A DNA stretch of 64,000 nt from Halorubrum salsamenti. Its GTDB lineage: Archaea > Halobacteriota > Halobacteria > Halobacteriales > Haloferacaceae. The notes beneath the pieces were generated by a model. That model was given only the letters and a program-made list of their open reading frames with translations. It ran no database searches and was not told the DNA's origin. Of the stretch, positions 5,826-58,707 are shown one piece after another; the first letter of the stretch is position 1, and each line of letters starts with the position of its first letter. Location of the stretch: assembly GCF_007671685.1 (NCBI RefSeq), contig NZ_VCNL01000002.1:496001-560000 (forward strand), written 5' to 3'. Both the position numbers and the translations under genes were made by a program.

Positions 5826-6010
5826 CTTAATACGCCGACACGGCCGCCGGCGCGCCGCCGATCGACCGAAGGGCGCGAGGAGCCCGCGAGGGAGGCGGCG
5901 GGGCGGCGCGGCTCCGCCTGCGCCGCCCCGTCCGCCGAGGTTGGAGAGGCGCGAGGTGCGGTTGCGGTCCGGGGCGGTCCGGGGTGGTTACGGATGGGGC
6001 CTTAAAGGGG
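5826..6010 (+). repeat. Copy A of a GC-rich structured intergenic repeat
   Basis: Follows TATA-like CTTAATAC (5826-5833). Contains CGCGAGGGAG (5885-5894), then a long hairpin whose 10-bp core pairs GGGGCGGCGC with GCGCCGCCCC (within 5895-5936), then a 20-nt block at 5937-5956 that matches copy B at 29051-29070 in 17 of 20 positions, all differences being transitions. A G-rich tail ends in CTTAAAGGGG (6001-6010). It fills most of the 446-nt gap between the MFS gene and L11. No ORF is convincing in it. Confidence 0.6.
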
Positions 6011-6046
6011 GCTTGAAGGAGTTCTCCGCCGATTTGCGGTCAACCA

Positions 6047-6054
6047 CTTTTAAG
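6047..6054 (+). promoter_or_regulatory. TATA-like element, distal L11 promoter candidate
   Basis: CTTTTAAG, about 190 nt upstream of the L11 start. It is one of three TATA-like elements in this region. Confidence 0.35.
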
Positions 6055-6085
6055 CGATCGACTGGGAATTCGGAGCTGTTCACTG

Positions 6086-6103
6086 CGAAAGAACACTTAT
6101 AAG
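6086..6103 (+). promoter_or_regulatory. BRE/TATA, middle L11 promoter candidate
   Basis: CGAAAGAACACTTATAAG combines a purine-rich BRE-like sequence with a strong TATA box. A transcript from here would carry a leader of about 110 nt before L11, including the small inverted repeat GTTAC-GCGAA-GTAAC near 6128-6142. Confidence 0.5.
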
Positions 6104-6194
6104 CGCATTCTCACTTCGACTCGTTGCGTTACGCGAAGTAACCGCCGCGCTGTGGTCGATATCGGAAGTGTGCGAACCGCTGGCTCCCCCTGCC

Positions 6195-6215
6195 CGAAAG
6201 AACAACCGTTAAAAG
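6195..6215 (+). promoter_or_regulatory. BRE/TATA, proximal L11 promoter
   Basis: CGAAAGAACAACCGTTAAAAG ends 23 nt before the ATG at 6238 and repeats the CGAAAGAACA BRE-like string of the middle element. The spacing predicts a leaderless L11 mRNA. Confidence 0.6.
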
Positions 6216-6237
6216 TCGCCATCGGGTTCGTACGGAT

Positions 6238-6714
6238 ATGGCTGGAACTATCGAAGCGCTCGTCCCCGGCGGGCAGGCCAACCCCGGCCCGCCGCTCGGT
6301 CCCGAGCTCGGGCCGACGCCGGTGGACGTTCAGGACGTCGTGTCGCAGATCAACGAGGAGACCGCCGCGTTCGACGGCATGGAAGTGCCCGTCACCATCG
6401 AGTACGACGACGACGGCTCCTTCACGATCGAGGTCGGCGTCCCGCCGACGGCCGAACTGATCAAGGACGAGGCCGGCTTCGAGACCGGCTCCGGCGAGCC
6501 CCAGGAGGACTTCGTCGCGGACATGTCGATCGAACAGGTGAAGAAGGTCGCCGAGCAGAAGTCGACCGACCTGCTCGCGTACGACGTGAAAAACGCCGCC
6601 AAGGAGGTCGGCGGCACCTGCGCCTCCCTCGGCGTCACCATCGAGGGCGAGGACGCCCGGACGTTCGACGACCGCGTCGACGCCGGCGACTACGACGACG
6701 TCCTCGAAGCGTAA
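6238..6714 (+). CDS. rpl11: 50S ribosomal protein L11 (uL11)
   Basis: 158 aa; forms the ribosomal GTPase-associated stalk base with L10/L12 and 23S rRNA. N-terminal VPGGQANPGPPLGPELGPT (about residues 9-27) is the Pro/Gly-rich L11 signature; the C-terminal rRNA-binding domain contains AAKEVGGTCASLGVTIEG (about 120-137). The acidic tail is typical of halophiles. It stands alone here; the L1-L10-L12 genes are not in the window. Three tandem promoter-like elements precede it, and a T-rich stretch near 6729-6750 may terminate it. Confidence 0.98.
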   Translation: MAGTIEALVPGGQANPGPPLGPELGPTPVDVQDVVSQINEETAAFDGMEVPVTIEYDDDGSFTIEVGVPPTAELIKDEAGFETGSGEPQEDFVADMSIEQVKKVAEQKSTDLLAYDVKNAAKEVGGTCASLGVTIEGEDARTFDDRVDAGDYDDVLEA

Positions 6715-28791: not shown

Positions 28792-28844
28792 CGCGCGGCT
28801 GAGCGAGCCTTTTTGCGTGGAGATTCGCGGGTGAGTCAGTCGAT

Positions 28845-29210
28845 CCGGTTGCGGTCAGTACAGACGCAGCAGTGATCGATAGCGAGAGTGGGTGTTGCAG
28901 CTTGTCAGCAGTAATACAATATTTAAATAATGATGAACGGCTGCGACGATCGCTTATAAAGGACCCTGCGGTGGCGCGTGCCTGCGAGGCCGCTTCGCGG
29001 CCGAGCAGCACCGCGCGAGGGAGTCGCTGGCGGCGCCAGCCGCCAGCGACGAGGCTGGGGAGGCGTGAGGCTGCCGTGCTGTGCGGGGCGGGTGGGATTC
29101 AAAGGGGCAGCCGCTGAGAACGGCACAGGCGACGTAAGCACCGCAAGGAGCGAGTGAAACGAGCGACTGAGGAGCACAGCGAGCGTGCGCCGTTCTCAGC
29201 GGCTGGGGCT
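28845..29210 (+). repeat. Copy B of the structured intergenic repeat, with promoter pair
   Basis: Starts CCGGTTGCGG (28845); has ATATTTAAA (28919-28927) and TTATAAA (28954-28960) exactly 35 nt apart. It continues with TGCGGTGGCGCG, hairpin GGCCGC-TTC-GCGGCC (28988-29002), CGCGAGGGAG (29014-29023), a 10-bp hairpin TCGCTGGCGG/CCGCCAGCGA (29024-29049), and the 20-nt block 29051-29070 shared with copy A. A last 17-bp inverted pair (29108-29124 and 29189-29205) closes the element. No protein is encoded; no plus-strand gene follows. Confidence 0.7.
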
Positions 29211-29240
29211 TTGGAAGTCGTCACCGCAGCGTCGTCGCCC

Positions 29241-29284
29241 GCTTATAAACAGCCGACGGCAACACCACTCGTTTACTTATAAAC
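29241..29284 (+). promoter_or_regulatory. Second pair of TATA-like boxes
   Basis: TTATAAAC at 29243-29250 and again at 29277-29284, 34 nt apart, in the gap after copy B. They point away from the AAA gene toward the 3' end of the convergent rhodanese gene, so they could only drive a non-coding or antisense transcript. Confidence 0.4.
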
Positions 29285-29407
29285 AACCACCGAGACAACT
29301 CGATATACGTACTCTCGCACTCGATCAAGAAGCAGTCTTCTTCCGCCCGGCTGTTTCAGTCCACTTCCACCTAAAGAACCGGGCTCAAACGCCCCCGACA
29401 GACCGAC

Positions 29408-39527: not shown

Positions 39528-40151
39528 ATGAGCGACCACGATCACGACGGCCATGACGATCACGACCACCACGACCACGACGCCGAATCGGTGGCGTTCG
39601 GTGTTGTGACGGTATCTTCCTCGCGGTCGCTGGACGACGACCCCTCCGGCGAGTACCTCGTCTCGGCGTTCGAGGACGCCGGCCACGAGATCGTCGTCCG
39701 CGAGCTAGTCCCCGACGAGTACGACAGCGTGCAGGGGACCGTCGACCGGCTCGCGCGCCGGAAAGACACCGACGCGGTCGTGACCACCGGCGGAACGGGA
39801 GTGACGCCCGACGACGTGACCCCGGAGGCCGTGAAGGGGTTGTTCGCCAAGACGCTCCCCGGCTTCGGCGAACTCTTCCGCCGGCTCTCCTACGAGGAGA
39901 TCGGGACGCGCACGATCGGCTCGCGGGCGATCGCGGGAGTCGTCTCCGCCACCCCCGTTTTCTGTCTTCCCGGCTCGGAGAACGCGGTCCGCCTCGGCGC
40001 CGACGAGGTGATCCTCCCCGAGATCGGTCATCTCGTCGGACTCGCCGGACGGGACGTGGAGGACGAGGAGGACGAGATGGGTGACGTCGCGGGGACGGGC
40101 GACGAATCGTCCGATAGCGCCGGCTCGGCGGAGGCCGACGACACGGAGTAA
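39528..40151 (+). CDS. moaB: Molybdenum cofactor biosynthesis protein MoaB/MogA type
   Basis: 207 aa from ATG 39528. Adenylates molybdopterin before metal insertion. The MPT-binding core has VTTGGTGVTPDDVTPEAV (about residues 85-102), FGELFRRLSYEEIGTRTIGSRA and VFCLPGSENAVRLG. The first 17 residues are a His/Asp tag (DHDHDGHDDHDHHDHD) that may hold metal ions; the last 25 are acidic. No other moa genes are near, apart from the distant CinA-like gene at 63170. Confidence 0.92.
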   Translation: MSDHDHDGHDDHDHHDHDAESVAFGVVTVSSSRSLDDDPSGEYLVSAFEDAGHEIVVRELVPDEYDSVQGTVDRLARRKDTDAVVTTGGTGVTPDDVTPEAVKGLFAKTLPGFGELFRRLSYEEIGTRTIGSRAIAGVVSATPVFCLPGSENAVRLGADEVILPEIGHLVGLAGRDVEDEEDEMGDVAGTGDESSDSAGSAEADDTE

Positions 40152-58479: not shown

Positions 58480-58707
58480 AAGCCCTCCGGTCGCCGGCGG
58501 CTTCGCCGCCGGCGGTCCGAGGGACCTTCGGTCCCTCGCTACTCGCGCCCGAATGGCGCTCGGACGCGCGCGCCACCGCACCGCCGCGTTCATTTATAAA
58601 CGATTGTCGCTATCGCTCGCTCTCTTTTAAATATCGTATCGTCACCGACGAACTGCAGTATGTACTCCCGGTATCGATCGCCGCTGTTCTGTAGTACCCG
58701 CAACCGG
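58480..58707 (-). repeat. Copy C of the structured intergenic repeat
   Basis: On the minus strand it starts CCGGTTGCGG (58707-58698), has ATATTTAAA (58634-58626) and TTATAAA (58599-58593), again exactly 35 nt apart, then TGCGGTGGCGCG. It ends in three hairpins: GCGCC-N5-GGCGC (about 58556-58542), CGAGGGACC/GGTCCCTCG (58538-58518) and GCCGGCGGC/GCCGCCGGC (58513-58493). It points toward the small membrane protein gene, whose ATG is about 30 nt beyond. It resembles copy B from its start to about its first hairpin. Confidence 0.7.

Follow-up and report, generated by a model that had tools for sequence, protein, structure and literature searches.

Anatomy of the element and its neighborhood

In the 64,000-nucleotide stretch of Halorubrum salsamenti DNA analyzed here (the window), a non-coding repeat, copy B, lies between the convergent genes of an AAA ATPase (+) and a rhodanese (-), so that, as a preliminary description had noted, no plus-strand gene follows it. 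The full element covers approximately 28842-29378 on the plus strand. It begins with an outer arm of “type 2” (CCGGTTGCGGTCAGTACAGACGCAGCAGTG, 28842..28873, +), which is located outside the inner inverted repeat, is common to many copies and aligns with the head of copy C. Next come the left inner terminal inverted repeat GATCGATAGCGAGAGT (28874..28889, +), with one mismatch to the consensus, and two TATA-like boxes: a distal one, ATATTTAAA (28919..28927, +), conserved in the copies that have inverted repeats, and a proximal TTATAAA (28954..28960, +), 35 nt after the distal box.

The 5’ domain of the core (28967..29022, +) comprises TGCGGTG, the hairpin H1 with its tandem G-A mismatches, and the GCGAGGGA linker. 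It is followed by the hairpin H2 (GTCGCTGGCGGC/GCCGCCAGCGAC, 29023..29050, +), an exchangeable module with 12 of 12 base pairs in this copy; by the most conserved linker, CGAGGCTGGGGAGGCGTGAGG (29050..29070, +), which serves as the family tag; and by the long hairpin H3 (CAAAGGGGCAGCC...GGCTGGGGCTTTG, 29100..29213, +), with repeated tandem G-A internal loops and arms of 31 nt (84%). The fold of positions 28960-29210 is 4.2 standard deviations below dinucleotide shuffles. To the right of the core are two further TATA-like boxes, 34 nt apart (29243-29249 and 29277-29283, +), the right inner terminal inverted repeat (29311..29326, -; GATCGAGTGCGAGAGT on the minus strand), and an outer arm of “type 1” (AAGAAGCAGTCTTC...GGCTGTTTCAGTCC..., 29327..29378, +). 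The end previously placed at 29210 therefore falls short, and the element extends to about 29326 at the right inverted repeat or to 29378 with the outer arm.

Copies A and C

Copy A, upstream of rpl11, consists of a core-only 5’ domain with an H2 module unlike that of copy B (5843..5957, +) and of a decayed tandem 3’ unit (GGCCTTAAAGGGGG...CTTTTAAGCG and GACTGGGAATTCGG...CTTATAAGCG; 5997..6108, +), while H3 is missing, as it is from other short forms. Directly before rpl11, at 6185-6240, the sequence CGAAAGAACAACCGTTAAAAGTCG is almost the same in all Halorubrum loci that were read; it looks like the real promoter of rpl11, which would be independent of copy A.

Copy C (58707-58490 overall, minus strand) retains the left end of the element and the start of the core (58537..58707, -), with an outer arm, the inverted repeat (58664-58679, -) and the boxes (58634-58626 and 58599-58593, -). 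It also carries a nested double-hairpin insert (GAGGGACC..GGTCCCTC, CCGGCGGC..GCCGCCGG; 58488..58540, -), of a type that recurs in loci L127 and L177. Elsewhere in the window, positions 39925-39940 weakly resemble the inverted repeat, with 3 mismatches, and have no core in their vicinity.

The similarities first noticed among the three copies were borne out. The heads of B and C, described as an alignable 5’ part, share 68% identity across 174 nt (E 3e-13), and reading both copies confirmed a distance of 35 nt between the starts of ATATTTAAA and TTATAAA in each of them. The block common to A and B is the 21-nt CGAGGYTGGRGAGGYRYGAGG, for which only two sites exist in the window at up to 3 mismatches where 0.08 would be expected; no shuffle contained two. 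Scored with a covariance model of the 5’ domain, the kind of model proposed for all three copies, B is found with 79.9 bits (E 9e-17) and A with 25.4 bits (E 5e-4, with strong composition bias), whereas the 12 bits of C (E 0.7) are not significant alone. The weak score of copy C is due to its truncated core and its insert, and the head alignment by itself makes its membership secure.

Architecture across copies

The anatomy of the element was defined from 30 copies of the same genome aligned in one orientation. Its order is: outer arms of two types, the inner inverted repeat GATCGATAGCGGGAGT, TATTTAAA and CTTATAAA, the core, two more CTTATAAA boxes, and again the inverted repeat. The boxes described as a paired-promoter head are thus present, but they belong to the left end of the element, which is mirrored at the right end, and do not form a separate head. 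The element bounded by inverted repeats measures about 445 bp, with a distance from repeat to repeat of mostly ~430-456 bp, and in some loci only ~150-290 bp are left between the repeats. The genome contains 63 sites of the inner inverted repeat compared to 3 for the control.

The core, of ~250-290 bp, is non-coding and is formed by three conserved hairpins, H1 to H3, joined by near-invariant linkers in the order TGCGGTG-H1-GCGAGGGA-H2-CGAGGCTGGGGAGGYGTGAGG-G-rich stretch-CTCAAAGGGGCAGCC-H3-GGCTGGGGCTTTGG, with its end near CACCG. The lengths of H1 and H2 vary freely and are not confined to multiples of three, an argument against coding that agrees with the earlier statement that no protein is encoded. 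About two dozen copies in the genome are MITE-like: they are dispersed, lack coding capacity, and have at each end a terminal inverted repeat and a pair of TATA-like boxes. Others consist of the core without inverted repeats (L015, L024, L026, L028, L029, and L030). A 3’ unit of ~57 bp containing TTTATAA can repeat in tandem, as in locus L304, upstream of rpl11, where such units (TTTATAAACGAGCGGCTGGGGCTTTGGAAGTGTTCGCCG...) come after the core. Inside the hairpins of many cores there are double-hairpin inserts of ~50-60 nt, sometimes nested (58488-58540 on the minus strand; L104, L119, L098, and L236), which appear to constitute another family of small mobile elements, with a habit like that of SMR-A.

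Distribution of the family

Although only three copies had been recognized, the repeat family itself is real and far larger. In the host genome (3.67 Mb), blastn finds 46 matches to copy B, and the tag CGAGGYTGGRGAGGYRYGAGG has 87 exact sites, or 94 with one mismatch, so that the search for further copies yields about 90 in this genome alone. Among 391 genomes of Halobacteria, the tag is present in all 46 Halorubrum genomes, with 10 to 180 sites in each, in one other genus with 92 sites, and in a few others with 1-6; the remaining genomes of this set have no site, and a control pattern, the tag read backwards, has none in any of the 391. The named carriers include species of Halorubrum, Haloparvum, Halobellus, and Halorussus, and the named contigs are mostly from Halorubrum. 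With the covariance model of the 5’ domain, more weakly scoring relatives were detected in additional genera of the same taxonomic family.

A search of a plasmid collection gave partial matches, mostly in haloarchaea, and that of a phage collection gave nothing beyond short chance hits in mycobacteriophages. Rfam 15 has no match in the window above the gathering threshold, the best one below it reaching 17 bits. No description of the family was found in the literature searched, whose coverage is incomplete, even with the conserved sequence included as a query. The repeat family is widespread, structured, and apparently mobile; its general kind is known, but to the extent of these checks it is new.

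Selection on hairpin pairing

The preliminary description had proposed that the hairpins represent a selected secondary structure, and the analysis of H1 and H3 agrees with it. Because the H2 classes are one base apart in register, the automatic structure of covariance model R1 was poor, and a hand-made structure of H1 was used instead. In 35 distinct sequences of 49 nt, H1 is 97.5% paired, with compensatory changes at nine pairs and 66 doubly compensated cells compared to 16.5 in shuffles. Its covariation score is 0.384 against 0.126 in shuffles (0 of 500), and slid structures score far lower. The facing G-A dinucleotides that form the tandem mismatches and a bulged C remain invariant within these varying stems. 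In the 94-nt class of H3, double changes occur at 27 of the 33 pairs.

One-sided changes, which were counted without folding, produce G-U rather than A-C in a ratio of 44:6 in H1 and of 33:8 in the 12 outermost pairs of H3. Since the opposite excess would be expected on the reverse strand, the strand that pairs is the sense strand of the core. A mutational strand bias could add to this excess; nevertheless, selection for one-strand pairing in H1 and H3 is well supported. H2 behaves differently, having no G-U excess (G-U 5 vs. A-C 7), and its near-perfect arms are discrete modules common to several species, such as GTCGCTGGCGGC, CGCGGTGAGCGCTCG, and GTCGGTGGTCCGGAGCGAAGCGGAGG. The observation that arms of unrelated sequence stay complementary in each copy is thus correct, but for H2 the differences between copies mostly reflect the exchange of whole hairpins rather than gradual covariation.

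Apparent mobility and genomic setting

A property absent from the preliminary description is the apparent mobility of the element. Three relatives have an empty site at the copy B locus, where the flanks are contiguous and only 22-45 bp separate both genes. In other relatives this site is occupied by a different version of the element, by another insert, or by the outer arms with an unrelated ORF between them. The last arrangement is that of locus L188 of relative G014, where a small unrelated ORF takes the place of the core between the same two outer arms as in copy B, which suggests that the outer arms may be an older repeat or an exchange site. Near-identical copies are also found amid unrelated flanks (L004/L008/L011/L021/L025 and L006/L007/L009). 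A core stands within 600 bp upstream of rpl11 in 14 of 30 species, with a single orientation in all of them, and is absent there from the others. This pattern fits either an early insertion that was later lost several times or insertion in a preferred orientation.

According to a simple gene calling, 130 of 139 copies are intergenic. They are enriched between convergent genes (36.7%, compared to 19.8% of gaps) and depleted between divergent genes. A role as transcription terminator is not favored, given that between co-directional neighbors the core is oriented the same way in 28 cases and the opposite way in 25. Insertion biased to the lagging strand would give orientation domains, and there are none along the complete G022 chromosome.

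The inverted-repeat pairs are ~150-550 bp apart, and no long element that could be a transposase-bearing or autonomous partner is present among the pairs listed. Because the sequence beyond the inverted repeats is itself made of repeated arms, no target-site duplication is readable, and the label “mobile” rests on the pattern of copies and on presence and absence at individual loci.

TATA-like boxes and possible transcription

A TATA-like motif precedes the core in 27 of 28 copies of the host genome and in 50 of 103 foreign copies, compared to 1.6% of random windows. The proximal box is usually 14-15 nt before the GGTGGCG of the core. As the usual spacing between TATA box and transcription start is 25-30 nt, this box would place the start inside the 5’ arm of H1 and would give no full-length RNA. 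The distal box lies 35 nt farther from the core, and with the same spacing it would direct a start immediately ahead of the core. Because TTTATAAA is its own reverse complement, it carries no readable direction. A promoter function of the boxes is thus possible.

Comparison with known elements

In Bacteria, the ERIC, REP/BIME, and Correia elements are high-copy, intergenic, imperfectly palindromic, and group-restricted sequences with nested insertions. The Halorubrum family shares all these traits, a likeness by description only, and differs in belonging to another domain of life and in being larger and modular. The omega RNAs and HEARO RNAs are structured RNAs carried by IS200/IS605 elements, and they are comparable in that a structured RNA module, predicted in our case, is present in many copies on a mobile element; the Halorubrum family, however, has no Rfam match, nor was an association with tnpB noticed.

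The nearest categories are the haloarchaeal PATE, MITE, and SMR elements (PMC3119063). PATEs lack terminal inverted repeats and have near-terminal palindromes related to IS605, and SMR elements insert into PATE palindromes (PMC3119063). The PATE of the Halorubrum lacusprofundi virus HRTV-DL1 has been reported to be highly transcribed (PMC10544981). Like the PATEs of Haloquadratum and HRTV-DL1 (PMC3119063, PMC10544981), the present family is haloarchaeal, non-coding, several hundred bp long, palindrome-rich, intergenic, and apparently mobile, but many of its copies have the terminal inverted repeats that PATEs lack. The HRTV-DL1 PATE (L212, OP630574, 601-1090), the one PATE compared, has palindromes of the GCCGTTCACGGCGG/GCCGTTTACGGCGG type near both ends, unlike the Halorubrum family; no meaningful similarity was found between them, and the weak matches are compositional. 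With MITEs and SMRs the family shares terminal inverted repeats and a length too short to code (PMC3119063), and its double-hairpin inserts enter palindromes as SMR-A does (PMC3119063). It differs from both in that the core, with its selected one-strand structure, is also found without inverted repeats. Among the listed repeat pairs, no related transposon end was found.

Interpretation and alternative explanations

We consider it probable that the family, found in Halorubrum and its close relatives, is an interspersed mobile element of high copy number that is non-autonomous and carries a putative structured-RNA module. Its copies would spread through an enzyme supplied in trans, and recombination between copies would both spread the element and swap its hairpin modules. 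The core would act as a folded RNA or, less likely, as a folded single DNA strand, and in this form may be recognized by a protein needed for spread or persistence. A tentative extension, which we regard as possible rather than probable, is that of a genus-wide RNA-based archaeal mobile element in which a folded RNA of ~250 nt with exchangeable hairpins would be the functional part for spread or regulation, similar in role, not in sequence, to the IS605-type RNAs.

The palindromes throughout the element, its mobility, and its intergenic and convergent placement would also suit an element acting at the DNA level, whose single-stranded hairpins are recognized by a transposase, as with IS200/IS605 ends, REP/BIME, or PATE, any RNA being incidental; the nested double-hairpin inserts within hairpins likewise recall the SMRs that enter PATE palindromes (PMC3119063). 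This explanation seems to us somewhat unlikely, because the strong excess of G-U over A-C suits RNA better, even if G-T pairs in one DNA strand might also produce it, and because neither the orientation domains expected from lagging-strand insertion, along the complete G022 chromosome, nor a real similarity to the HRTV-DL1 PATE was found. The same strand-specific selection on pairing, together with the high copy number in all 46 genomes of the genus and the TATA-like motifs at a fixed distance in most copies of the host, could instead indicate a multi-copy family of non-coding RNA genes that has a function in the cell, was spread by a mobile element, and is now retained by selection in the genus. 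Against it speak the gain and loss of single loci among closely related genomes, the unconstrained variation of hairpin modules and inserts, the decay of copies, and the position of the proximal box too near the core, which together make such a gene family quite improbable. Finally, arms could be kept complementary by repair or gene conversion between them, with no selection on structure; the discrete, exchanged modules of H2, with near-perfect arms and no G-U excess, are what this process would leave. Homogenization, however, would erase mismatches, and the facing G-A/G-A pairs and the bulged C persist in varying stems; nor would it favor G-U over A-C. It is thus disfavored for H1 and H3 and, as an account of the family, very improbable.

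At up to 180 copies per genome of ~3 Mb, these repeats rank with the most frequent non-coding sequences in Halorubrum, a well-studied genus of Archaea. Should the core prove to be an RNA, the family would make available thousands of natural, homologous hairpin variants in which tandem G-A helices and module exchange could be studied. If it is mobile DNA only, it would account for much of the intergenic variation among Halorubrum genomes and would provide a marker for the comparison of strains.
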